From: Methylacidiphilum caldifontis | GTDB taxonomy: Bacteria; Verrucomicrobiota; Verrucomicrobiia; Methylacidiphilales; Methylacidiphilaceae | Length of the DNA: 64,000 nucleotides | NCBI RefSeq assembly: GCF_017310505.1 | Contig: NZ_CP065957.1 | Span: 620,001 to 684,000 of the forward strand | Reading direction: 5' to 3' | Shown here: in pieces, positions 2,999 through 60,851 of the stretch | How positions within the stretch are numbered: position 1 is the stretch's first letter | Layout of the letters: every line of letters starts with the position of its first letter | Program-made: the position numbers and the translations under genes | The notes under the pieces: generated by a model | What the model was told of the DNA's origin: nothing | Seen by the model: the letters and a program-made list of their open reading frames with translations, nothing else | Databases searched by the model: none

Positions 2999-3598
2999 AT
3001 GAAATCATTTATTTTTGCCTTTAGTGTTATAACCGCTTTATCTATTTCATCGCTTTATTCTCAACAGGCTTTAAAAATAGCCGTAGTAGACCTTCAAAAA
3101 GCTTTTAATGATTTTTACAAAACCAAGGAGGCGGACTCCGAAATGAAATCCAAAGTCGCCGCTTTCGAAAAAGAAAGACAGGAGATGGCCAACGACTTGA
3201 ACAAGATCGGTGAAGAAGCAAAAAAGATGCATGATGCCGCCCAGGATAAAACCCTTTCAGAAGCGGCCAGGGCAGAAAAACAAAAAGCATTTGAAGCCAA
3301 AGCACAAGATTTCCAGGCGATGCAAAGAAAATTTCAAGAATTCCAATACGTGCGGACTAAAGAACTGGAAGATCGTTCACAGCGCATCAGGCAGAGTATC
3401 ATTGACGACATTACTAAAACCATTTTAGAAATCAGCAGCCGTGAAAAATTTACTCTAGTCTTTGACAAATCTGGGAAAAGCTTAAGCGGAACAAACGTTC
3501 TGCTTTACTCCCAGGATGTTAAGGATATTACGGATGAAGTGATTAAAACGATTAATGCAACAAAACCACAAACCAAGGCTGCTTCTACTTCTCAATAG
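2999..3598 (+). CDS. skp: OmpH/Skp-family periplasmic chaperone
   Basis: Skp/OmpH proteins hold unfolded outer-membrane proteins in the periplasm and hand them to BAM. The 199-residue product starts with a clear signal peptide (about 1-22, ending near YSQQA). The long central part, about residues 40-125, is highly charged and rich in Lys, Glu and Gln; it should form the paired coiled-coil arms of the family. A C-terminal segment with IIDDITKTILEISSREKFTLVFD returns to the body domain. It sits between bamA and lpxD, the usual neighbourhood. The ATG start directly precedes the signal peptide. Confidence 0.9.
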   Translation: MKSFIFAFSVITALSISSLYSQQALKIAVVDLQKAFNDFYKTKEADSEMKSKVAAFEKERQEMANDLNKIGEEAKKMHDAAQDKTLSEAARAEKQKAFEAKAQDFQAMQRKFQEFQYVRTKELEDRSQRIRQSIIDDITKTILEISSREKFTLVFDKSGKSLSGTNVLLYSQDVKDITDEVIKTINATKPQTKAASTSQ

Positions 3599-3658
3599 TT
3601 TGGATCAGAAGGAGGGCAAAGACCATCACTGCCCTTTCCACTCAAAGAGGAATAAAAA

Positions 3659-44267: not shown

Positions 44268-45418
44268 ATATTCTCCTTAATAGCTGAAAACGGCACTATA
44301 TTCGACTCAGGCAATGAAGGGTAAATCTGAAAATACCGCTTGCCATCTTCCTCGCTTACTAATGCCCAGTAATGTCGGTAAACCAATGTAGAACTGGAAT
44401 GACCGAGTTCGAAAGCGACCTTTCCGGCATCTTTGCATTGAGCTAACCTGTAGGAAGCATAGGAATGCCTCATGCCGTTGTGCTTCCATTCAATGCTTGT
44501 CAGAGCCATCAATTTCTCGAGCTTATGTTGTACATTCTTGGGTTTTACATCCCCAACTTTTTTACGGTAGGGTTCAATCCAAGCCCTTGCGTTTTCCTAC
44601 AATGGAACGACCCTTCGACTCGCTGTTTTTGCGACCCCTGCGTCGATCACAACTTCTTTGTGATTAACCTGCGACCATTGAAGTCTGTCCAGTTCTGCAG
44701 TCCTCAGTCCACAGAAGAACCCTAAAGCAAGGTAGGAGACGAGGTCGGGTATCTCTTTCCTTGCGGCTTCCAGTAAAATCTTAATCTCTTCAATGCTGAA
44801 TATTTCAGTCTTGGCAGGTCTTACCTTAAGGTTAGGAACTTTTTTTATGATATCTTCAGGACACCATCCCTGCATAGCACTCCAGTTGAGAAGATTGCTG
44901 ATGACCCTACGGAAATTGACTTTGGTTTGAGGCGCAACCGGAAGATTTAAAATCCAGAGGTAAATTTCTTGTGGAGTGAGAGAGGAAAGAATCCGTCCGG
45001 AAAAATCTTGCTTAAATCGATTTAAGCGGTTTTTCAAGTCCTGTAAAGCTCTTGGTCTTAATCCTTCGATAGTCTTAGCCTCAAGAAAATGAGTTACGGC
45101 TTCCTCAACAGACACACTGGACAACTCCCTCTTGCGTTTTTCTACCCAATCTCTAACTACGGTTAGCGGATCAACCCCAAAAGGTTCCAGCAATTTCTTT
45201 ATCTCTGCCAACATCTCAGCATCCCCGGGACGCAGCGACAAAGCTCCTTTGCCGGCTTCCTCAAGCTGGTTTATGAGCTTCCTGCATTCAGCTTCGGCTT
45301 TAACCTTGTTCGTGAAAAATCTTCTATGACGCTTGCCCTGAGCGTCTCTCCATTCCAGCACATAGGGATACTTACCGTCTTCAGTTTTCTTTATTCTCGG
45401 CGGTAAAGGTTTTCTCAT
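44264..45418 (-). pseudogene. tyrosine integrase with one in-frame amber codon
   Basis: One continuous reading frame of 385 codons broken only by TAG at 44597-44599 (codon 274). Up to there lie the SAM-like core-binding region (about 95-185) and the catalytic start with box I arginine in GLRTAELDRL. After it, in the same frame (ENARAWIEPYRKKVG), come HNGMRHSYAS (box II HxxR), ELGHSS and the nucleophile in VYRHYWALV. All catalytic residues survive if the amber is read through or suppressed. The gene sits 108 bases inside att copy 3, as expected for the island integrase. Confidence 0.85.
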
Positions 45419-45918: not shown

Positions 45919-46386
45919 ATGAACCAATTAGTGTTATTTCATTCAATCATGGGAATCTTTATTGTAGTGCAAAGTTCTTTTGCCCAGATCTATCCTTTTC
46001 CTGAATATCCTAAATCACCAAACTCAAAAGAGCAATCTTCTCAACCTTTATATGGAACCCCTTTTGTAGAATCAACATGGCTAAGTTGGGAAGTAAAAGG
46101 AATTCATTTTCAAGAAGGAATGGATCAAGCCAGAGTAATTAAGATAATGGGTGAAGATTATGAACGATACGATGTAATGGATATCCATTACCGAAGAGGC
46201 CGAATAATGTCAGGATATATTGGGGTATATTTGAAAAATAAATTAGAATCTGCTCATGTTTTAAAATGGACTTACCAAGATTCTTCTCATTATGTATACG
46301 AAGCCTATTTTCTCTTCTTAGATAAAAATAAAAGTCTTGTTAAAATATTTTTAAGGAAAAAACCCTTAACTATTATAGCCCAATAA
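45919..46386 (+). CDS. small exported protein, paralogue of the one at 49045
   Basis: A 155-residue protein with a signal peptide (about 1-23, ...SSFAQIYPFP). The mature domain has VESTWLSWEVKGIHFQEGM, VIKIMGEDYERYDV and IHYRRGRIMSGYIGV, and ends SLVKIFLRKKPL. It shares most residues with the second copy 3 kb away. EGMDQARVIKIMGEDYE resembles the start of SmpA/BamE-like or DUF3192-like folds, where a short helix follows a KGM(S)xxxV motif, but this is only a hint. Function unknown. Confidence 0.6.
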   Translation: MNQLVLFHSIMGIFIVVQSSFAQIYPFPEYPKSPNSKEQSSQPLYGTPFVESTWLSWEVKGIHFQEGMDQARVIKIMGEDYERYDVMDIHYRRGRIMSGYIGVYLKNKLESAHVLKWTYQDSSHYVYEAYFLFLDKNKSLVKIFLRKKPLTIIAQ

Positions 46387-48648: not shown

Positions 48649-49044
48649 GCAGTATAATATCTATATCCATCCTTTCAGTAGTTAAGAAGGTTGCAAGCAT
48701 TTCTCCAGTTTTGAACAACTATTCACTCATTGCTTAAATCACATGCATGAAGATAGAATTTTCTGACTTTAAAATAGAAAGAACTTTAAAATAGAAAGAA
48801 ATTATAATGATGAATAGGATTTTCCTGCAAATTAAAAGAAAAAAATAGGGGCTTCCAAAACCAAATTGTTGATTTCCTTTTTTAAGGTAATCTGCTATTC
48901 TTCTATAACTCTCTATTTCTATTATTTTTAAGCATCCCAATCCAATTGATATTAATTACTTACCATAATAGCCACTGGAACATTAGACTTCCAATGAAGC
49001 AAAAAACCTTTTATAAACAAACTTACAATATTTTAAACAATCCA
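48649..49044. other. intergenic region without recognised features
   Basis: About 400 AT-rich bases. A TTG-started extension of the next gene runs to 48946, but it lacks similarity to its paralogue and is not accepted. Confidence 0.35.
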
Positions 49045-49521
49045 ATGTGCCTACAAACTTTTGATTTATTTCCAACAATAATCTTTGGATTCTTCATTTT
49101 CATTCAGATTTCTTTTGCCCAGATCTATCCTTTTCCTCAATACCCTAAATCAATAAACTCAAAAGAACAATCTTCTCGATCTTTATATGGGACTCCCTTT
49201 GTGGAATCAACATGGCAAAATTGGGAAGTAAAAGGGATACGTTTTAAAGAAGGAATGAATCAAGCCACAGTAATTAAAATAATGGGAGAAGATTATGAGC
49301 GTTACGATGTGATAAATATCCATTACAGAAGAGGTCGAATAATGTCTGGCTATATTGGTGTAAATTTAGAAAATAATTTAGAACCTGCTCATGTTTTAAA
49401 ATGGACTTATAGAGATCATTCTCATTATGTTTACGAAGCTTATTTCCTTTTCTTAGACAAGAACAATAATCTTGTTAAAATTTTTTTAAGGGAAAAACCA
49501 TTAGACATTATAGCTCAATAA
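49045..49521 (+). CDS. small exported protein, paralogue of the one at 45919
   Basis: A 158-residue protein starting MCLQTFDLFPTIIFGFFIFI with a signal peptide ending ...SFAQIYPFP. Alignment with the first copy, including upstream bases (TTAAAxAAxxCCAATG), fixes ATG 49045 as the start. The mature domains are roughly 85% identical by eye. Duplication around the barrel gene suggests a local tandem event later broken by IS insertion. Function unknown. Confidence 0.65.
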   Translation: MCLQTFDLFPTIIFGFFIFIQISFAQIYPFPQYPKSINSKEQSSRSLYGTPFVESTWQNWEVKGIRFKEGMNQATVIKIMGEDYERYDVINIHYRRGRIMSGYIGVNLENNLEPAHVLKWTYRDHSHYVYEAYFLFLDKNNNLVKIFLREKPLDIIAQ

Positions 49522-49554: not shown

Positions 49555-50475
49555 TTACTCCAAAAATAGTTGCAACAGTTCTGAAGGAATCTCAGGAGGC
49601 TCTGCATGACGCTCAAGCTTTCCAATAAGGAAACTTGGGGGATCTGTGGTAAGCTTCTTGCTCACATATTGTTGTGTGGATTGTATCCAAGCTAACAGTT
49701 GTAAATTACAGCAAAGCGCAGCCCCTTCCCATTGTTTCATTTCTAGCACATCTCCTTTCCTTGTAACTATAATGCAGGATGTGCAGGCATTTAGGATCCT
49801 TTGGTTGTATCGATCGATTTTTCCCCCACAGTCCACTAAAAGAACTCTCTTACTTTCTTGAAGTTTTTCAATGTCTTCAACAACTTTGCCAACAAACTCT
49901 TCGTTCCATGACCCCTTATACCGTAGTATCTTTACAAGTTGTGGATCTCCTTCAACAAACCAGTCTCCCTCGCCATCAGGACATGCTCGCAGTACAAACA
50001 CTTCACGTTGTCCCTCTTCACCAAGAGCATTTCTTAGCCTCTTGACTAGTGAGTAAACCAACACCGACTTTCCACTATGAGGAGGGCCTATGATTGCTAC
50101 AGCTCGGTGATGAAAGCTAGAGCTTGTATGTTGAGAACGTTTTTCTGTCGACAGTTGCTTGGATAGATAGCGGCTATCCACTTGGCAAATAGTTCCTACT
50201 GGCGGTGCATCTACTCGATGAGCTTCAATAACAATAGCGCCATGACGAGGATCATAAACAGCAATCCACGGGCTTGGATGACAAAGATGGGTCAAGTAAG
50301 TGTAGAGCCAAATTGGTGCCCTGCCACAAATAACAATGCCTCGACTCATGGAAAGCTCCGGAGGCAGTTGAACCGAAGGAAGTTCTTTTGGGTCTATTAT
50401 TCCATTCCCTAAAAGGAGAATGTCCAAAATCTGAAAATCGTCCGCTGGAATAACACTTAGCGAAAGATTTTTCAT
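49555..50475 (-). CDS. csx3: Csx3 ring nuclease fused to a P-loop ATPase
   Basis: A 306-residue two-domain protein. The N-terminal part (about 1-105) is Csx3/Crn3: SRGIVICGRAPIWLYTYLTH...PWIAVYDPRHGAIVIEAH. H66 and D75 are spaced like the cyclic-tetra-adenylate-degrading residues I recall for archaeal Csx3 (H60/D69). The C-terminal domain has Walker A GPPHSGKS (130-137) and a Walker B-like RVLLVDCGG (210-217), an arrangement known in some Csx3-AAA proteins. Ring nucleases switch off type III signalling by degrading cA4, yet no cyclase (Cas10) is encoded in the window. Same strand as the RAMP-helicase genes, 320 bases after them. Confidence 0.85.
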   Translation of the reverse strand: MKNLSLSVIPADDFQILDILLLGNGIIDPKELPSVQLPPELSMSRGIVICGRAPIWLYTYLTHLCHPSPWIAVYDPRHGAIVIEAHRVDAPPVGTICQVDSRYLSKQLSTEKRSQHTSSSFHHRAVAIIGPPHSGKSVLVYSLVKRLRNALGEEGQREVFVLRACPDGEGDWFVEGDPQLVKILRYKGSWNEEFVGKVVEDIEKLQESKRVLLVDCGGKIDRYNQRILNACTSCIIVTRKGDVLEMKQWEGAALCCNLQLLAWIQSTQQYVSKKLTTDPPSFLIGKLERHAEPPEIPSELLQLFLE

Positions 50476-50795
50476 TAAAATTATCTCTTTTTCTTTCCTT
50501 TCTACACTTTTTGGGAAGAGAGTAGACCTCTTTTCTTAGCACTGTCAAGCAAATGAATGTCCAAAGACGTCCTAAAGACAAACTTATAAACGATAACTTT
50601 CTAGTAGAAACAATAAATTGGTTTTGACAGAGCAGGCTATCTTTTTATCATTTCGGTGCAGCCTTAAAGAAATCCAACAACTCGTTTCACGAACAAATGC
50701 TTAAAGAAAGCAGAAAGGTGTAGCACATCACAACCAAATACAATGTAAAAATTACATTCTCAAACAAAACCCCTTAATAAAGTGTCTTTTTAACA
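50476..50795. other. 320-base gap between helicase and csx3
   Basis: Non-coding. It contains a candidate minus-strand promoter for csx3 (50585-50613), implying csx3 can be expressed apart from the upstream genes. No CRISPR repeats were seen. Confidence 0.45.
50585..50613 (-). promoter_or_regulatory. candidate csx3 promoter
   Basis: On the minus strand TTGTTT and TTTATA are separated by exactly 17 bases, about 110 bases before the csx3 ATG. Confidence 0.35.
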
Positions 50796-53700
50796 CTAAC
50801 GGCTAGGTAGGATACCTTTTTCTTTCAATCGATCCCACAAGGGGTCCAGCGCTTTCTCTCCTTCCCATTCAAAACGCGAGAGGGGAAGCCTCCAAAACTC
50901 CCAACCGTAGCGTTCTAATGTTGCTTGCCGCTCCCAGTCTCTAGCTTGCTGTTCGAGCTCAGTATGGTGTGGACCATCGCATTCAACAGCAAGTCGAGCA
51001 TGATGTCCAATAACAACAATATCAATCCGGTATCCGCCAGGGCCAAAGGGAGCTTCTTGTAATCGCAAATTATATCCCTTTCCCCAAATAAGCTTAGCCA
51101 CTTTCCGCTCAAACTCGCTTTCACAAATAGACCAATCTGGCACGCCTCCTTCAGGCACTGGTACCCTAGGATCTTCTAAGAAATGTTTCAAAAGAAAAGA
51201 TCTCATACAATTAGGAGATAAATCCTCTAAAGAAACAGAATAAAAAAGCCAAAGCTGATCACGTGCTCGGCTAGCCGCTACATTGAAACGTCTTCTGTCC
51301 GAAGGCTTGGTTAAAGCTCCAATGCGCTCTTTAGGTGGGGCAGCAACTATAGAAAGAAAGATGACATCTCGTTCATCACCTTGGAAAGTGTAGGGATCGC
51401 CGCAAACGATTCTATGCCTATTCATACGCTCTACTGGGATCCTACTATCCAAAAGTAGCTTGTTAATAAGCTCTGCTTGTTTTTCACCTTGCAAGCTAAT
51501 TATTCCCATAGTACGGTTTTCATAGCGTGAGTCTTCTAGACATTTCATGACTGTTTCGACAACCTTTTGGGCCTCAGGAGGATTGACAATCTGGCTACCT
51601 TTTTCATCTCGATAACCATTCTCAACATAGACAGCTTTTAGTGGTTCCAAGCGATCCAAGCCGTATGTCCTGAGGGGATACAATGGGTAATTTGTGTAGG
51701 AAATCTTATTAGAAAACGCAATGATTTCTGGCATGCACCGAAAATGTTCCCGAAGTCTAATCCGTTGCGAAAACATAGTTTCCGCAATGTCAAATAGGCT
51801 AGAGTCACCCTCAAATAAGGATGCAAAAGGATGGTCCTTTAGATATTGATTAATAAGAGATCTTACTTGTTTTTTGTCGATACCGACAGCCTCGGGTGAA
51901 ATTTGCTCATCATCACCAACGATCACAGCCTTCTTTGCAATAAAACAAAGAAGAAGGGAGTCTAATTCACTTTGGCTTGCCTCATCAATAATGATTACGT
52001 CAAAAAACTCAGGCTTTACATGAAGAGTTTGAAGCAAACGATTAAAAGGAAGCACCCAGGCAGGGACCACATTACGACATTTTCCTAAGTATTGGCTAGC
52101 TTCTTTTTGATAAAAAGAGACGTATTTTCCAGTCCCCTTGCCGATTTTCCGTAGCGTTTTTTTCCAAGCTGTAAGATTTCCATTACCCTCTTCGGGCATG
52201 ACCTTCCTAAGAAAAAACCTTGCTCTTGAAGCTGCCAAATCCTCAATAAGCTTTTTCTCTTTTATTTCTAGCTCTTTTTTTCTTTTTTGATATTCTTCTA
52301 CAGGAAGTTTTTCTTTTAAAAGTTTTTCTATATAGGTTCGAGCAATCGCCCATTTCCAAGCCTTAGGTAGACTTTCCAACCGCTTTGGCCATTCAGGATC
52401 AGCTATCGTAGACAACAGTTTTTCCATAGTGTTAGGAAGAACCTGTTTCCATTTCCCTATAACTTGGCTTGCAAACTCAAGCTTTACTCGATCGTTTTCC
52501 ATTTCTCTAAGCTTCTCATAAAGCAACCAATAGCGTTGAATGTCTTTTTCCTTTAGTGTCTCCCACAGATCATTCGTTATAGGATGTGCGGAAGCACGGT
52601 CGATACGTGCAAGAATTCTCTTAATTTGTTCTAATTTGTTATGGATATTTTGTAACTCCTTAGCAATCCATGCAGCAGAAAGGAGATCGGAAGCTTTCCT
52701 AAGCTCAGGAAGACTTTTTATCGAGATTGGTGAGTCTAGCTGGGAAGCAAGCCAATTTTCCAATTGCCTCACTTCTAGCTCAGCACAAAGAAGCTCACGC
52801 AATAGTTGTTGATTTCTTGTAAAAATAGCCATTCTCTCTGGTAAAGAAAAAGAAGAAATCTTACCTAAGTGAGTTTCCCAAAGAGAGCTAAGTTCTTCAA
52901 AACACATTTGGCACCGCAGCCAAACAAGAAGATTAGAGAGAGTCTTTCGATCTCGACAAGGATGACCATTGACTTTTACAAAGGCCCACAACGCACGGGT
53001 TTGTCGAACAACCTTTGGCTGAAAAATCAAAAAACCCCACCCGCCGCCAGATTCTAAGTGGGAGAGAAGTGTTTGAGCTTGTTTTAACGCCAAGGGTAAT
53101 GGTTGAGTAAGACCATCAACAATTATTTCCCTGGCTTCTTTAGCCTGCTCAATCTCTGCTATCAATCCAGCTGAACGTCCTTCCAGCTCTTGCCAACTGC
53201 TCCGGTATCCTAAAAGAATTTCTTCCAGTGCTTTTTTGAGCCAATCGGATCTCGATCCTTTTAAGGAAAACTCTTGAAAAAGAGCTTTTGCTGCATCAGA
53301 TCTTTCTTTAAGGATTTCTTTGTCAATTGTGAGAAGAGAATTGTACTCAATTTCTCTTAAACCCAACTGATTAATCTCTTGTTGCAATAGATTTTCTTTT
53401 CTCCAAAGTTCTTCGAGGTCTTGAGGAAGAGGAAGCTCTTTTATAGATGGGTAAAGAAGTTTCAATTCTTCTTTTCGGTCTGAGGAAATTTCATGAAGGG
53501 TCCAGTATGCATGTACAAGCTCTTCTACAATAGTTGGATATTGGTAGTCAGGGTTCACAGGATCGCATATCCAGCCCAACTCCTTTTCTTCTTGCCTCAA
53601 CCGCAAAACTAACTCTCCAGGTGTTCCTTGATAATAAGTGCCAGGAATGTGAATTGATGTACTCTCCGTTGCTCTATATGTTCGAAGCGCATCATTACAC

Positions 53701-55193
53701 ATGCGTAACTGCTCGCGAGTTTCCTTCAAATATTTTGACAACAGCTCAATGTTCCGTTGAAGCACCTCAGTTGTTACTCGCGATTGCATATCTAATATTC
53801 CGTTTACAGATTTCTCCATTCTATCCATATCTTCTTTGCGATCTCCCAAGGCAGTTACGCAAAGAGGTTTAAGTGAGTCAGGCAATTTATCGTATAAAAC
53901 CTTTAAAGCTCGAGAGGTTTGACTTGTTACCAAAACTTTTTTCCCATGAGCCAAAAGATGACAGATAAGATTGGCTATAGTGTGGGATTTTCCAGTACCC
54001 GGAGGACCTTGAACCACTACTGCGGGTTGTTTCTCAAGCTTAAGGACAATATCCCGTTGCTCCTCGTTAGAAAGGAGAGGGAAAAAAATATCATCCCAAG
54101 TTTCTCTTAGCCTCTTGTCTTCTGTAGGTAAAGTTTGCTCATCAATAGATGATGACAACCCACAAAGATAACTGAAAAGCAAAGGAGGTTTTTCTAGTCT
54201 TTCTATTTCTTGGATGGCTTCATCCACGCGTTGAGAAAAAATCTCAGTAATACGATTTCGAAACAAAATAATTGGCTCCCAGTAGACCTGGGGGTAGCTA
54301 GAAAAATCTGATTGCTCTCTTGGTAGTCTATCTGGACAAAATTTGCCATGTGGATCTAGCACATGAATGAATCGCTTAAGAAGTTCTACTATTTTTTCCT
54401 TTTCCAATGGACTGGCTAGCTTCTTAGCTTCTTCTTCAAGCTCTCTTAGATTGTTTGGCTTTTCGTCAGGATCTAAAAAAGTTGTTTGAACCTCTGCTCC
54501 TATACGATCAGGATCTGAGAAAAGCTGGATCTCTCCTGTATCTTCCTTATACTCAATACCTAATGGAAAGCCAAGAATCGGATGGCGAATTTTTTGCCGA
54601 TCTTTTGGAGCCCACACCAAAAGACCGATACAATATAAAAGTTCGTATTTTTCTTCCTCTTGCTTAATTTGTTGATAGATTTTGAAAAGTTTTCGGTATT
54701 CTCGCGAGACGTCTTGATATTTTTTGTATTTGTCAAGCCAAGCTTTCCAATCTTGCTCAACAAAGCGATTATAGGACTCTAAAAGGGATGGATTTGGTTC
54801 CAGGATTTTGCCGTTAATCTTTATTTGCTCCTTAAGCTTAGGTTTTTGCACATCATCTAGATCTTCATTCAATTCCTTATTTTCTATCCAATCTATCCAA
54901 TCCCGAAGATTTTTAGGAGGGTCAGGGCGCCGTGGTACTTCAGGACGAAGAAAGGAAAGCAAATGTTCTGTCCTTTCTTCGTTATCCGCTAAAGGCGCAT
55001 CTAAAAGCAAACCTTGTACTTCCTTAAACCTTCTAAGGTCTTCCAAAAAGAAAACTGAGTCTTGCCCGTAATCCAATAGGTTCCTGGGTAACTTCCGTTT
55101 AGAATGTATAATTTTATGGAGCTCTGCAAGGTAGCGAAGAAGCGCAATAGCCTTATTTTTTTGTGAGAATGCATGTGAATTTTTAAAGCTCAT
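50796..55193 (-). CDS. giant SF1 (UPF1/DNA2-like) helicase with C-terminal nuclease
   Basis: A 1,465-residue protein. The N-terminal 390 residues are mostly helical and unrecognised. Walker A GPPGTGKSHT is at about 395-404 and Walker B-like VIIDEASQSELD near 1066, leaving about 670 residues, largely coiled coil, inserted between motifs I and II. Later SF1 motifs follow (VGDDEQISPEA, EHFRCMPEII, TFQGDERDVIFLS, AASRARDQLW). The end, AVECDGPHHTELEQQARDWERQ (about 1400-1420), is a Vsr/DUF559-type PD-(D/E)xK nuclease. The start ATG 55193 overlaps the cmr1 stop by 11 bases and has a perfect GGAGG 6 bases upstream; the longer frame to 55283 is rejected. It is probably the effector of the RAMP operon. 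Confidence 0.9.
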   Translation of the reverse strand: MSFKNSHAFSQKNKAIALLRYLAELHKIIHSKRKLPRNLLDYGQDSVFFLEDLRRFKEVQGLLLDAPLADNEERTEHLLSFLRPEVPRRPDPPKNLRDWIDWIENKELNEDLDDVQKPKLKEQIKINGKILEPNPSLLESYNRFVEQDWKAWLDKYKKYQDVSREYRKLFKIYQQIKQEEEKYELLYCIGLLVWAPKDRQKIRHPILGFPLGIEYKEDTGEIQLFSDPDRIGAEVQTTFLDPDEKPNNLRELEEEAKKLASPLEKEKIVELLKRFIHVLDPHGKFCPDRLPREQSDFSSYPQVYWEPIILFRNRITEIFSQRVDEAIQEIERLEKPPLLFSYLCGLSSSIDEQTLPTEDKRLRETWDDIFFPLLSNEEQRDIVLKLEKQPAVVVQGPPGTGKSHTIANLICHLLAHGKKVLVTSQTSRALKVLYDKLPDSLKPLCVTALGDRKEDMDRMEKSVNGILDMQSRVTTEVLQRNIELLSKYLKETREQLRMCNDALRTYRATESTSIHIPGTYYQGTPGELVLRLRQEEKELGWICDPVNPDYQYPTIVEELVHAYWTLHEISSDRKEELKLLYPSIKELPLPQDLEELWRKENLLQQEINQLGLREIEYNSLLTIDKEILKERSDAAKALFQEFSLKGSRSDWLKKALEEILLGYRSSWQELEGRSAGLIAEIEQAKEAREIIVDGLTQPLPLALKQAQTLLSHLESGGGWGFLIFQPKVVRQTRALWAFVKVNGHPCRDRKTLSNLLVWLRCQMCFEELSSLWETHLGKISSFSLPERMAIFTRNQQLLRELLCAELEVRQLENWLASQLDSPISIKSLPELRKASDLLSAAWIAKELQNIHNKLEQIKRILARIDRASAHPITNDLWETLKEKDIQRYWLLYEKLREMENDRVKLEFASQVIGKWKQVLPNTMEKLLSTIADPEWPKRLESLPKAWKWAIARTYIEKLLKEKLPVEEYQKRKKELEIKEKKLIEDLAASRARFFLRKVMPEEGNGNLTAWKKTLRKIGKGTGKYVSFYQKEASQYLGKCRNVVPAWVLPFNRLLQTLHVKPEFFDVIIIDEASQSELDSLLLCFIAKKAVIVGDDEQISPEAVGIDKKQVRSLINQYLKDHPFASLFEGDSSLFDIAETMFSQRIRLREHFRCMPEIIAFSNKISYTNYPLYPLRTYGLDRLEPLKAVYVENGYRDEKGSQIVNPPEAQKVVETVMKCLEDSRYENRTMGIISLQGEKQAELINKLLLDSRIPVERMNRHRIVCGDPYTFQGDERDVIFLSIVAAPPKERIGALTKPSDRRRFNVAASRARDQLWLFYSVSLEDLSPNCMRSFLLKHFLEDPRVPVPEGGVPDWSICESEFERKVAKLIWGKGYNLRLQEAPFGPGGYRIDIVVIGHHARLAVECDGPHHTELEQQARDWERQATLERYGWEFWRLPLSRFEWEGEKALDPLWDRLKEKGILPSR

Positions 55194-56055
55194 GGAAATC
55201 CTCCGTAATCTGGGATAAAATCGGACCGGATCTCCATTCCGTAAGAGTATTTTCTCCAAGTACCCGTTCATGGGGAGCTTCAAGAACTAAAAGATGAAAC
55301 TCTTTTTGAGGAAACGCCACTTGTATAGGTCGTAAAAGAAGAGCGCTACGCTGCCTGGGATTATCAAGTCCAAGGGGAGTGGGACGATGTCTGTTCCTAC
55401 TTCGAGCCGAATAACATTTTCGTAAATTCTTTAAATAGTCCTCGGCTTTTTTTACTAATCCCCACCAATCTCTTGCTTTTGCATCTTGCGGAAAGTGAAA
55501 TAAAAAACCTGCGGGACAAAGAAGTTGGTTAATCCTTTCCTGCCACTCTTCTAGTGTTTTTGGAGCTTTCTCCCATTGGAAAGCCCCAGCACATCGAGTA
55601 GCTCGATATCCCAAAGAACCAAAACAAAGAAAAGCTTCCTTGGCATTGTTCCATAGAGTAAAAAGTTGGGGATCCCTCTCACAAGGATCCCTTTGCCATA
55701 TAAACTGAATTTCACAGGAGCTACCAGGGGAAATAGCGCATTCCTTATTCCAACGGTCGGAAGCTTTAATAAAGTACCAAAGGTAACCTCCCTCTTTAGG
55801 GCTAAGCTTTTTGTTCCACCATTTTTCATCGGAAGGCTTCTTTATAAAAAAACGCATCAGAAATGCACTTGCTAATGCAGGATTTAAGCTTATGCCTCCA
55901 AAGACTTGCTGTTCCTGCTCTCTGCTTCCTCCAAGCACGCGAAACCACCATCGAAGTTCTCCACGTACTGCACTCACTCGAGCCTCAGCTCTACTAGGAT
56001 CAGCTCCACCACAAAAACATGGAGTTATGAATGTAATCGTATAAGTCTCTTGCAT
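55183..56055 (-). CDS. cmr1: Cmr1-like RAMP (Cas7-group) protein
   Basis: A 290-residue RAMP protein. The opening TFITPCFCGGADPSRAEARV, then RVSAVRGELRWWFRVLGGS and VFGGI, is the Cmr1 signature (in type III-B, Cmr1 sits at the crRNA 3' end with Cmr6). It is somewhat shorter than typical Cmr1. ATG 56055 follows the cmr6 stop by 5 bases; its own stop overlaps the helicase start (CATGAGCTTTAA). No Cmr2-5 is in the operon or the window. It probably binds RNA, but its guide is unknown. Confidence 0.88.
   Translation of the reverse strand: MQETYTITFITPCFCGGADPSRAEARVSAVRGELRWWFRVLGGSREQEQQVFGGISLNPALASAFLMRFFIKKPSDEKWWNKKLSPKEGGYLWYFIKASDRWNKECAISPGSSCEIQFIWQRDPCERDPQLFTLWNNAKEAFLCFGSLGYRATRCAGAFQWEKAPKTLEEWQERINQLLCPAGFLFHFPQDAKARDWWGLVKKAEDYLKNLRKCYSARSRNRHRPTPLGLDNPRQRSALLLRPIQVAFPQKEFHLLVLEAPHERVLGENTLTEWRSGPILSQITEDFHEL
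55200..55204 (-). promoter_or_regulatory. strong ribosome-binding site of the helicase
   Basis: A perfect GGAGG on the minus strand, 6 bases before ATG 55193 and inside the end of cmr1. It decides the helicase start and indicates independent, efficient translation of the large protein. Confidence 0.7.
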
Positions 56056-56060
56056 AGCAA

Positions 56061-57413
56061 TTAAGGAAGTTGAAAAGAAAACTTTTTCGCAAGGTTTTGA
56101 ATTCCAAGATAGCTTCTGTTTGTTGGAGAGTTTTTCACGCTCTCATATAGAGAAGTATTTTCCCTTAAGAGATAATAGAGAAGAGTATACTGATAAATTT
56201 CGTCTTTTGTGTATCTCTTGTCCCAGTATTTTTCTTCTACTGAAAACCATTTAATTTTTTGGCGTAACTGATCTTGTTTAAGACCTTTAAGCTCTTCTAG
56301 GATTGTTGGATCTGGTTTTAAAGAAGCCAGCAGAGCTTCTTTTTCCCTTTTCTCTTTTCTACTCTTCACAAGGGATTCTGCTTGTTGGATTGACTCCAAA
56401 TCAAAATAGCCGCATCCCGATGAAGTTTTTGCTCCAACTCCAAAAACTCTAAGCCCTACGGAGAGAAATCTCCTTGCTAAATTGACATACTCTTTGTTAT
56501 TCTTCCTCCCTATAAGCGGAAAAGAAAAAATAGCACCTGGACCGACTGTAATAAAGAATACCGGGTTAGGACCCTCGTCATCGGTGGCAATCTCTTTAGC
56601 TCCTCTGTAATAATCCATATGATGACAAGAAATAACATCAAGTTCTAATCGTATTGGAAGGCTTTTATCTCCATTTGAGAGGGGCATTGGATAAGCCGGC
56701 AAAAACTGCACCATTCCAGCAAAATTTGCAATGCCAAGCTCTTCCTCTTCTTCTTGATAGAAAGGCTTTAAATGTAACATAAAATCTTTAGCTAAATCTG
56801 AACTTATTTCTTTCCAGGATGCTTTCCCTCCAGATGCATATTCCCAATCACTACCTTCCTCCCAATCCTTTGAGACCCAACCAAATACCAGAAGGCTTTC
56901 TCTAATCATTTGCTTTTTATTTAGAAAACCTTCATATAATTCCGGCCAAGGGCTTTCCTTGGGAGCTTCCCTATCTTTCCACATGTTTAGAGCCGCAATC
57001 GCCGCACGACGGGCACATCCTTTCACTGCACTACCGGGGATATAAGAAACTCCATATTGGTCCAAGCAAAGATTTGCATTTTCCAGTACACCACCGCTCA
57101 TGTTTACAACGAGCCGAGATTGTAACCGACCAAAAAGAATATAGTCCTTGAGTTCCGTATCTTTTGGCCAAAGATCTAAGAGAAATTCAAGTTGGTCTTC
57201 ACACCGAAGTTTTATAGAATCCCGCGTATGCTCAACTTGATCAATAACCTTTTTTAGTAAAGCTTTTCGATCATCTCCTTTAAGACGAGGGTCAGCATAT
57301 TTCGATAGCAAAAGAGATGGAGAAATAAAACTATCACCTTTCTGTTGAAGCAGGTTTTTTACTTCATTTGGAAGTAAATAAATACATTTTCCTAAAGAGC
57401 CCTCTTCTTTCAT
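56061..57413 (-). CDS. cmr6: Cmr6-like RAMP (Cas7-group) protein, long form
   Basis: A 450-residue RAMP protein, longer than usual Cmr6. An N-terminal helical part (about 1-95) precedes the RAMP core. Cmr6 hallmarks are YIPGSAVKGCARRA (124-136), LELDVISCHHMDYYRG (256-271), NPVFFITVGPGAIFSF (283-298) and the Gly-rich loop GVGAKTSSGCGYF (325-337). A Lys-rich C-terminal extension of about 110 residues follows. It is the first gene of the operon, with two candidate promoters upstream. In III-B complexes Cmr6 caps the crRNA 3' end beside Cmr1; no other subunit is present here. Confidence 0.88.
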   Translation of the reverse strand: MKEEGSLGKCIYLLPNEVKNLLQQKGDSFISPSLLLSKYADPRLKGDDRKALLKKVIDQVEHTRDSIKLRCEDQLEFLLDLWPKDTELKDYILFGRLQSRLVVNMSGGVLENANLCLDQYGVSYIPGSAVKGCARRAAIAALNMWKDREAPKESPWPELYEGFLNKKQMIRESLLVFGWVSKDWEEGSDWEYASGGKASWKEISSDLAKDFMLHLKPFYQEEEEELGIANFAGMVQFLPAYPMPLSNGDKSLPIRLELDVISCHHMDYYRGAKEIATDDEGPNPVFFITVGPGAIFSFPLIGRKNNKEYVNLARRFLSVGLRVFGVGAKTSSGCGYFDLESIQQAESLVKSRKEKREKEALLASLKPDPTILEELKGLKQDQLRQKIKWFSVEEKYWDKRYTKDEIYQYTLLYYLLRENTSLYESVKNSPTNRSYLGIQNLAKKFSFQLP

Positions 57414-57453
57414 ACAATAGCTCTCTTCCCGCTGGATTCTTTTTCATAATGTT

Positions 57454-57482
57454 TTTAAAATACGCAAGGATAAAAGTTTCAA
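57454..57482 (-). promoter_or_regulatory. candidate proximal promoter of the RAMP operon
   Basis: On the minus strand TTGAAA and TTTAAA are 17 bases apart, ending 41 bases before the cmr6 ATG. Confidence 0.35.
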
Positions 57483-57562
57483 TAAAGTGACATGTCGCAG
57501 AAAATCGAGGACGTCAAAAATTTCTCTCCTTCCTATGTACTCCATCATGAAAGCCACTTTTC

Positions 57563-57592
57563 CTTATACTATGGATATATTCTTAACGTCAA
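57563..57592 (-). promoter_or_regulatory. candidate distal promoter of the RAMP operon
   Basis: On the minus strand TTGACG and TATAAG are 18 bases apart, about 150 bases before the cmr6 ATG. It is the closer of the two to consensus. Confidence 0.4.
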
Positions 57593-57656
57593 GATATAAA
57601 AACCAAAAATATTCATTATAAGCTTAAGAAAAAATGGCATAATTCTTGGCAATATA

Positions 57657-57944
57657 AAGCCAAAGAACGTTCAACACAAACTCGAGAAGCTATCAGCTCT
57701 GACAGGTATCGGATGGCGGCACAACTGCATGCGGCACAGCTACGCAAGCTACAGGGCACAGTGCAATGACGCGCCACGTGTGTCTTTGGAGCTTGGGCAC
57801 ATGAGTCCGACACTTGTTTTTCGGCATTATCGGGCTTTAGTCAGTGAAGAAGATGGGCAGAGGTATTTTGAGATTTTTCCTGCTTTTGAAAGAAACGTAA
57901 TGAAGTTTAAAAAGGAAGTAAATCCTTTTAATCTTTTCCGTTGA
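57657..57944 (+). pseudogene. C-terminal remnant of a second tyrosine integrase
   Basis: Encodes KPKNVQHKLEKLSALTGIGW, then HNCMRHSYASYR, LELGHMSPTLV and FRHYRALVSEEDGQRYFEIFP. It closely matches the last about 95 residues of the island integrase at 44264 and keeps box II, the LGH motif and the catalytic Tyr. The N-terminal two-thirds is absent. It is the stump of a related element's integrase, divergent from the RAMP operon and 240 bases from it. Confidence 0.8.
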
Positions 57945-58190
57945 AATTTATATATAAATTCAGATAGTAGGTAGTAGCTATCTATTCATCGAATCTTTGA
58001 TTTAATCACGTTCTATTTCTATAGAAAGTGCTTATACAGCCACTTCAGATATCGATTCTCGATCAACTTCAAAAAAGGCATGGTACTTCAATCTAATTAA
58101 TTCTCAATCGATGTCTAATTTTTTAATAAAAGGTCGCTATTGACATTACCTAGGTCATCCTTAGCTTATTTCTAAGCGCTCAAATGTCTT
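57945..58190. other. 246-base intergenic region
   Basis: No gene, tRNA piece or CRISPR-type repeat was found next to the integrase stump. An att copy was specifically looked for by eye and not seen. Confidence 0.35.
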
Positions 58191-59231: not shown

Positions 59232-60851
59232 ATGTATTTGCAGGAGGTGCGTACCTACCAGAAAGGCAAGATCTATCGGTCTTATCTCGTCCGGGAGTCC
59301 TACCGAGTGGGCAAACAGGTCAAGACGAGGATTTTAGCCAATCTAACTCGGATGCCTGAAGAAGTCCGGGATGCGGTCAGAGCAATCTTGCAGGGGAAGA
59401 AGCTTGTCCCCCTGGAGGAGTGGGAAGCCCCGGATGCTTTGGATTATGGAGGCCTGGCAGTCCTCAAGCAAGCTTGGCAACGATTCGGTTTGGATCAAGC
59501 TCTTGGCGGAGTCAAATCGGAACGGAAACGGAAACTTTTGAAGGCGATGATCTACGGGCGGATTCTCTTTCCCTCATCCAAGCTTGCCCTGCGGGAGGAA
59601 GCCCGGGGGACACTCATAGCCAAGGCTTGTGGGTTGGAGGAGGATGACCTGGAGGAGGGAGATCTCTACCAAGCGATGGATGGACTCGGGTGGCTTTGGA
59701 GCGGGATCGAGAGGAAGCTCTACGAGGAATCTCAACCGGCTGGAGCAAGCCTGGTGCTTTATGATCTATCCAGTGTATATTTTGAAGGGGATGGTCCAGC
59801 TGGCTTGGCCCAATATGGCTACAGCAGGGATCATCGGCAGGATAGGCTGCAGGTTCTTCTTGCCGTCGCTACGGATAGTCGGGGCATTCCAATTCATGTG
59901 GAGGTGCTTCGAGGGAACCGGGCGGATAGTACGACCCTGACGGGGCTTTTGGTTACCCTGCGACGAAGGTTTGGGATCCAGGAAGCGACCTTTGTCTTCG
60001 ACGGGGGGATGAAGAGCCGGTGGAACCTGGAGATATTGACGGGTCTGGAACTCCAGTATGTGACACGAGCAACTCAAGCAAAGCTGCAGGAGATTATCGG
60101 AAGCCTTCCTGAAGATCGCCAGCTTTGGCTTACGGATCGGACTCGGGTCCTGGAGATTGTACACCAGGGAGTTCGCTATGTTATCGCCGGAGGGGAGTGG
60201 CGAGCGCAACGGGATAGGGAGCGACGGGAAAGACGGATCGAGCAAGGAGAAGAGCTGCTGCGCCAAATAGCACGATCGATGCGGAAGGGAGTGGATCCGG
60301 TCAATCTGGGCAGCCGGGTCGGCCGGGCGCTCCAGAGAATCCAGGCGCATAAATACTTTCGGTATGGGGTTGACGCCAAAGGCCGGTTCTGGTGGAAGCT
60401 CGATTTGGAGCGGGTTAAGGAAGAAGAGGCGATCGATGGTTGGTATCTTTTGGAAACTAACCTTCCCTCGGCCAAAGCTTCGGATCAGCAAGTCCTCACG
60501 CACTACAAGAGGCTTGCAGAAGTTGAGTCAGCCTTTTGCGAGCTCAAAAGCTACATGGAAATCCGTCCGATCTATCACTGGCGGCCGGACAGAGTCCGTA
60601 ACCATATAAGGCTCTGCTTCTTGGCCTTCTGGATCAGTGCCCAGCTCGGAACCGAATGGTTAGCGAAGGGTTTTACCGAAGAAGTTCCCAAAGTGCTCCG
60701 TCGCTTGCAATCAATCCGCTTGGTCCAACTCTCTAGCAAGGGAAAGCCTGTGATTAGTTTCTTATCCCGGATCCCTACAGAGCTCAACGCATTGCTTCAT
60801 AAACTCGACCTGCTACCGCTGTTTGCTCATCCGCCCAAGTGGGCTATGTAG
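59232..60851 (+). CDS. IS1634-family DDE transposase, intact
   Basis: A 539-residue transposase. The N-terminal part is SYLVRESYRVGKQVKTRILA; the DDE residues are D in LVLYDLSSVYFEGDG, D in ATFVFDGGMKSRW, and E in VESAFCELKSYMEIRP, followed by YHWRPDRVRNHIRLCFLAFW. This is the IS4-superfamily/IS1634 arrangement. GC content is visibly higher than the flanking DNA, suggesting recent arrival. It is the only complete copy in the window and could mobilise the other ends. A stem-loop and the right terminus (to about 60918) follow. Confidence 0.92.
   Translation: MYLQEVRTYQKGKIYRSYLVRESYRVGKQVKTRILANLTRMPEEVRDAVRAILQGKKLVPLEEWEAPDALDYGGLAVLKQAWQRFGLDQALGGVKSERKRKLLKAMIYGRILFPSSKLALREEARGTLIAKACGLEEDDLEEGDLYQAMDGLGWLWSGIERKLYEESQPAGASLVLYDLSSVYFEGDGPAGLAQYGYSRDHRQDRLQVLLAVATDSRGIPIHVEVLRGNRADSTTLTGLLVTLRRRFGIQEATFVFDGGMKSRWNLEILTGLELQYVTRATQAKLQEIIGSLPEDRQLWLTDRTRVLEIVHQGVRYVIAGGEWRAQRDRERRERRIEQGEELLRQIARSMRKGVDPVNLGSRVGRALQRIQAHKYFRYGVDAKGRFWWKLDLERVKEEEAIDGWYLLETNLPSAKASDQQVLTHYKRLAEVESAFCELKSYMEIRPIYHWRPDRVRNHIRLCFLAFWISAQLGTEWLAKGFTEEVPKVLRRLQSIRLVQLSSKGKPVISFLSRIPTELNALLHKLDLLPLFAHPPKWAM

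Follow-up and report, generated by a model that had tools for sequence, protein, structure and literature searches.

The 306-aa protein encoded at positions 49555-50475 (-) of the analyzed Methylacidiphilum caldifontis sequence is probably a Crn3 ring nuclease of the Csx3-AAA type that cleaves the cA4 made by a type III-B Cas10 encoded 94 kb away; its own operon would represent the 3' half of another III-B operon, and its P-loop domain most likely belongs to the SIMIBI class. The analyzed stretch (hereafter referred to as the window) comprises 64,000 nucleotides, corresponding to positions 620001-684000 of a single 2,254,698-bp contig (99.98% complete). Its features around the gene of interest are as follows:

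44597-45418 (-): N-terminal half of an integrase (ORF list).
49555-50475 (-): Csx3/Crn3 ring nuclease domain (residues ~1-100) and P-loop NTPase domain (~122-306), identified with PF09620, TIGR02579, PADLOC Csx3-AAA and an AF2 model.
50796-55193 (-): 1465-aa SF1 helicase carrying a Vsr-like (MTES_1575) endonuclease at its C-terminus, matching AAA_11, AAA_12 and PF18741.
55183-56055 (-): Cmr1-like RAMP (PF03787, 29.4 bits; PADLOC Cmr1, E 8e-13).
56061-57413 (-): Cmr6-like RAMP, 450 aa (TIGR01898, 97.5 vs. 51.1 bits).
~57650-57945, ends approximate (+): phage-type integrase, C-terminal piece, where the truncated operon breaks off upstream (sequence reading).
59232-60851 (+): copy of an IS transposase, 539 aa (ORF list and sequence comparison).

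The open reading frame at 49555-50475 (-) was correctly delimited in the initial annotation, which described it as a Csx3 domain fused to a P-loop ATPase. Profile searches bear out this fusion, with the Csx3/Crn3 part matching PF09620 over residues 24-89 (E 1.3e-24; 86.2 bits vs. a cut-off of 21) and TIGR02579 (78 bits vs. a cut-off of 55.4), and the PADLOC Csx3-AAA model extending over residues 23-280 (E 6.7e-51); this is the sole PF09620 match in the whole genome. Residues H63, H66, D75, R77 and H86 of the fusion align with H57, H60, D69, R71 and H80 of Archaeoglobus fulgidus Csx3 (AfCsx3), which are the residues studied in PMC7371418, and both half-sites are complete, so that the resemblance to active Csx3 first noticed for H66 and D75 extends to the three remaining positions. 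Structural comparison of an AF2 model of residues 1-109 with AfCsx3 (6yud) yields a Z score of 16.5 and an rmsd of 1.4 over 98 residues. In Csx3, two dimers enclose cA4 as a sandwich, one contributing its D69 face and the other its H60 face (PMC7371418). The window protein hence resembles the A. fulgidus Csx3/Crn3 (PDB 3WZI, 6YUD; PMC7371418) in fold and in all half-site residues, and differs from this single-domain protein in the addition of a C-terminal P-loop NTPase. We infer from the conserved residues that the fusion is a Csx3/Crn3 ring nuclease with predicted Mn2+-dependent cA4 cleavage, a reading to which the retention of all catalytic residues and the presence of Cas10 alongside full residue sets in nearly all fusions sampled both contribute. 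The same two parts make up the type III Csx3-AAA fusions (PADLOC PDLC01045; Synechocystis slr7080, PMC9676260), from which the window protein differs in lying 94 kb from Cas10; slr7080-like proteins are more distant from it, with ~30% identity over the P-loop part. The fusion itself is thus of the already long-known Csx3-AAA type, and what is unusual is the split arrangement that parts it from Cas10. No relative of the Csx3 fusion was detected in the viral contigs searched.

The initial annotation had correctly remarked that the RAMP genes of the window stand without a nearby Cas10. Searches with tblastn, using the genome's own proteins and, for the 40-62 kb interval, proteins from relatives, detected no Cas10, Cmr3, Cmr4 or Cmr5 in the window, and the intergenic gaps at 50476-50800 and 57414-58190 returned only chance-level matches to Cmr5 or CARF effector remnants. 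The main CRISPR repeat is likewise absent from the window, and a search of the 40-64 kb interval gave no direct repeats resembling an array. The further claim that no cyclic-oligoadenylate synthase was in sight does not hold genome-wide, the apparent absence arising from where the edge of the window falls. A Cas10/Cmr2 gene with intact GGDD and N-terminal HD motifs is located at chromosome positions 572460-575444, 94,111 bp from the Csx3 gene, and supports the first option originally listed, that of a Cas10 elsewhere in the genome. The second option, a signal produced by another enzyme, gains no support, since the single model used (PF18144) identifies no SMODS-type CD-NTase in the genome.

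The III-B locus (572460-588750) encodes, in order, Cas10, Cmr3, Cmr4, Cmr5, Cmr6, a CARF5/TIGR02584 protein, a Cad1-type CARF-adenosine deaminase, Cas1 and Cas2, and carries an array with ~63 repeats of GTTAGAACTAGAGATGAAGCCGAAAGGCAATTGAGAC. Searching for RAMPs genome-wide at E values up to 10 returned only four, Cmr4 and Cmr6 at the Cas10 locus and Cmr1 and Cmr6 in the window. No Cmr1 other than the window copy turned up in the genome, and the window Cmr6 is the genome's second, 31% identical to the copy beside Cas10. The Cas10 locus contains neither a Cmr1 nor a stand-alone ring nuclease of its own, and the window holds both; the full set of Cmr subunits is present in the genome only when both loci are counted. 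A Cas10 locus elsewhere that had lost its ring nuclease was the finding anticipated in the initial annotation as contradicting its interpretation, and this is largely what the genome contains, with the caveat that the CARF5 protein of this locus harbors GTSPA and GGRKT motifs and is named a TIGR02584 ring nuclease by NCBIfam. Judging by this name and these motifs, it might cut the messenger too, and Csx3 is perhaps not the sole off-switch. Moreover, the Cad1 that has been studied has a higher affinity for cA6 than for cA4 (PMC11645235), a preference that makes the match between messenger and off-switch uncertain in this genome.

Under our preferred explanation, the Cas10 of the III-B locus would make cA4, which the fusion would degrade in trans, and the resulting loss of cA4 would shut off the CARF effectors of the Cas10 locus. 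The window Cmr1 would likewise serve the distant Cas10, and a helicase/nuclease of stand-alone type would occupy the place of a CARF effector in the window operon. This scheme presumes that the fusion is expressed, that it cleaves cA4 and that it acts in trans for the distant Cas10. Ring nucleases operating in trans have already been suggested by Hoikkala et al. for 31 effector-less loci (PMC12409355).

The helicase/nuclease of the window operon retains intact motifs (Walker A GPPGTGKS, DEAS, ECDG). Its ATG at 55193 is preceded by GGAGG and generates an 11-nt overlap with the end of the Cmr1 gene, making the listed TTG start at 55283 the less likely of the two. Promoter and terminator scans performed no better than on shuffled sequences. 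The PDC-S37, ProA and Hhe helicase-nucleases (PADLOC; NCBIfam NF058533) have, like the window protein, an SF1 helicase core and a nuclease region at the C-terminus; the window protein is only distantly related to ProA (207 bits with NF058533, against a cut-off of 1500). The stretches examined around the nearest relatives of the helicase/nuclease elsewhere in the phylum contain no cas genes, and the notion that it is a type III accessory gene by general rule was dropped on that account. About 2.8 kb upstream of Cas10 (chromosome 569012-569656; positions 3012-3656 of survey locus L014) lies the wrecked C-terminal part of another helicase/nuclease, which is 48% identical and interrupted by three stops. 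Also upstream of the III-B locus (L010, 388-8556) are two large helicase genes, encoding 955 and 1761 aa by their start codons, and this pair looks like a further defence island.

These observations bear on the possibility that the four window genes form a separate, Cas10-free defence unit, in which Cmr1 and Cmr6 guide or recruit the helicase/nuclease and the Csx3-P-loop protein controls it by way of a ligand from a source other than Cas10. The overlap of the helicase/nuclease start codon with the Cmr1 gene, the stand-alone nature of its homologues, the anti-phage proteins found as its best profile matches and the wrecked homologue near the main-locus Cas10 are all compatible with such a unit. 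The four-gene set, however, occurs in no other sampled genome, the relatives of the helicase lack cas genes, and the region has no array, just as the genome has no PF18144 match. In addition, the known III-B backbone cannot be built from Cmr1 and Cmr6 without Cmr4 or Cmr3. We regard a Cas10-free unit as highly improbable.

To establish where the window operon came from, we compared it with the III-B loci of related genomes. Six related Methylacidiphilaceae (SolV, G263, G291, LP2A, M. tartarophylax and M. cyclopophantes), all but SolV belonging to the Methylacidimicrobium group, have a III-B operon with the gene order Cmr6-Cmr1-effector-Csx3 fusion, in which the fusion sits two genes after Cmr1; Cas10 precedes in four of the six, where contig sequence suffices, and lies on another contig in the other two. 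The effectors in five of these relatives belong to a single related family, which as read from the sequences appears to resemble CARF-nucleases (Card1), and that of SolV appears to be a CARF-HEPN-like protein. The III-B loci of Methylacidimicrobium spp. and M. fumariolicum SolV (L118-L121, L019, L020) therefore share the order of the window operon, and differ from it in having Cas10-Cmr3-Cmr4-Cmr5 ahead of these genes and a CARF effector where the window has the helicase/nuclease. Phylogenetic trees place the window Cmr6 outside the clade of main-locus, SolV and Kam1 Cmr6 proteins (support 97/99) and assign the window Cmr1 to the Methylacidimicrobium type (89/91), apart from SolV and the Kam1 main-locus protein (97/94), the exact place of the long branches being unsure in both trees. 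The Cmr genes of the window and of the Cas10 locus hence derive from different lineages, and such separate evolutionary histories of the two halves weigh against our preferred explanation. In M. kamchatkense Kam1 (L117, 1484-3452), frameshifted window-type Cmr6 and Cmr1 genes are found ~3 kb upstream of Cas10. On the basis of the trees and of these pseudogenes, the window operon is best read as what is left, still intact, of a second III-B module whose counterpart in a sister species has decayed, namely the surviving 3' half of a Methylacidimicrobium-type III-B operon minus Cas10-Cmr3-Cmr4-Cmr5. The Cad1-type gene of Kam1 is also split, into several frames.

The surroundings of the operon show possible signs of rearrangement. 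Upstream, the operon breaks off at the start of Cmr6. The two integrase pieces (44597-45418 and ~57650-57945) flank it in opposite orientation, as if an inversion had split one integrase. Decayed IS copies are scattered around the operon and another lies just beyond the array that accompanies Cas10, making IS copies at both loci a possible route of rearrangement; a single IS-mediated inversion joining the two loci was considered and rejected, as it fails to explain two Cmr6 genes that are only 31% alike. Also beside the operon, 45919-46386 and 48946-49521 are two copies, 81% identical in DNA, of a gene for a small secreted-looking protein of unknown family, the second of which returned no profile match.

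The decay of window-type Cmr6-Cmr1 in Kam1 weighs against our preferred explanation, since by the same token the window module may itself be a relic. The operon would then be dead, made up of III-B leftovers that are not yet pseudogenised and have no present function. Its missing upstream half, the integrase and IS fragments on both sides, and the truncation of a second Csx3 copy in SolV, which ends before the P-loop domain (L021, 10467-10838), fit this account as well. Against it stand four intact open reading frames totaling ~2,500 codons, which preserve all catalytic motifs of the Csx3, P-loop and helicase/nuclease components amid neighbouring genes that are broken. We therefore consider it unlikely that the operon is a dead relic, and retain the reading of a surviving half-operon whose ring nuclease serves the distant Cas10.

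The P-loop domain of the fusion is not covered by any Pfam family above its cut-off, and no AAA family exceeds its threshold (AAA_22, 16.6 bits vs. 27). Its Walker A motif is GPPHSGKS (residues 130-137). The motif following the Walker B strand is VDCGG (214-218), comprising a DxxG-type DCGG at 215-218, in place of the AAA+ Walker B hhhhDE with its catalytic glutamate. In 66 sequences of the domain, D215, G217 and G218 are invariant, and G130, G135, K136 and, one position excepted, a PDGEG box are invariant or nearly so. A model of the domain built on these 66 sequences (pLDDT 92.6) has as its best structural match MinD (1g3q; Z 15.2, rmsd 3.3 over 173 residues), the listed neighbours being mainly MinD, ParA/Soj, DTBS, nitrogenase Fe protein and HypB, with Z scores of 13-15 for the top ones, and the whole-protein model agrees, its P-loop part matching MinD at Z ~15. 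No AAA+ chain appears among the 50 structural matches listed, a result that does not in itself exclude an AAA+ fold. The deviant Walker A of MinD/ParA (KGGxxGK[ST]), with its signature lysine, is absent from the fusion. Taken together, the SIMIBI structural neighbours, the DxxG motif without the AAA+ glutamate and the lack of a Pfam AAA match over cut-off lead us to doubt the AAA label: the modeled C-terminal domain is most likely a SIMIBI-type NTPase with a MinD/ParA-like fold, not AAA+, and we think that the name is wrong at the fold level. SIMIBI NTPases commonly dimerise on nucleotide. This behavior suggests control of Csx3 stacking, in that nucleotide-dependent dimerisation of the P-loop domain could conceivably set the dimer-on-dimer stacking of Csx3 required for cleavage.

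A survey of 70 family loci from named genomes revealed that Csx3-first fusions with all five residues are almost always found in type III systems or in genomes holding them. Conversely, three Bacteroidales-type fusions with degenerate sites (L061, L062, L064) come from genomes without Cas10 or RAMP matches, two of which give weak, sub-threshold matches to a Csm1 profile. Exceptions to this pattern are L059, with a degenerate site alongside Cas10, and CPR genomes (L065). In Chloroflexota (L066-L101), genes for P-loop-Csx3-Csx3 proteins usually adjoin, divergently, a CARF5 (TIGR02584-like) gene. Repeat 1 of these proteins mostly keeps D and R, with most histidines gone, and such proteins may bind cA4 without cutting it. 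The last option raised in the initial annotation, that the Csx3 domain has turned from enzyme into a sensor controlling the P-loop ATPase, may fit branches such as this one. For the window protein, the fusion to an NTPase and the loss of catalytic histidines in Chloroflexota would favor it, but the H60 and D69 faces are both complete here and in the Csx3-first relatives, and we find a pure sensor scarcely credible in this case.

A second arrangement was found in Clostridia, in three loci where both genes of a Csx3 pair are visible:

L106, 9977-11461 and 12987-13976: Csx3 pair.
L108, 4650-6167 and 7639-9258: Csx3 pair.
L113, 6560-7804 and 9302-10117: Csx3 pair.

The first gene encodes a P-loop-Csx3-Csx3 protein in which D and R are present and lysines replace the histidines, and the second a Csx3-Csx3 protein with two histidines in repeat 1 and the histidine equivalent to H86 in repeat 2. 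A LysR-type regulator and a small gene lie between the two Csx3 genes in L106 and L108. Matches to the PF22335 Cas10 model and to RAMPs are absent from all eight Clostridia MAGs, two of which give sub-threshold Csm1-profile matches, an absence of Cas10 that is suggestive only, given that the completeness of these MAGs is unstated. If real, the Clostridia pair would be a naturally divided Csx3 active site, with complementary halves on separate proteins. A broader hypothesis, which we hold to be possible though rather doubtful, can be drawn from these elements: the P-loop domain would act as a SIMIBI switch, not an AAA+ motor, whose nucleotide-driven dimerisation sets the rate at which stacked Csx3 dimers destroy the messenger, coupling the off-switch to the nucleotide pool. 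In M. caldifontis the switch would operate in trans beside a Cad1-type effector (ATP to ITP), and the family would also have a Cas10-free use in the Clostridial pair, with one half-site per protein.

These results indicate that reading a single window can mislead, and that a genome search closes the apparent paradox of a ring nuclease without a synthase. Locus-based surveys, such as those covering 6 kb around Cas10 (PMC12409355), would miss a ring nuclease located 94 kb away and score this Cas10 locus as being without a stand-alone one. The predicted SIMIBI fold provides a first testable idea for a domain that papers describe as an AAA-ATPase whose function is unknown. Should the separation of half-sites in Clostridia prove real, it would allow the dimer-sandwich mechanism to be tested on a natural system and would hint at a role for Csx3 outside type III CRISPR.
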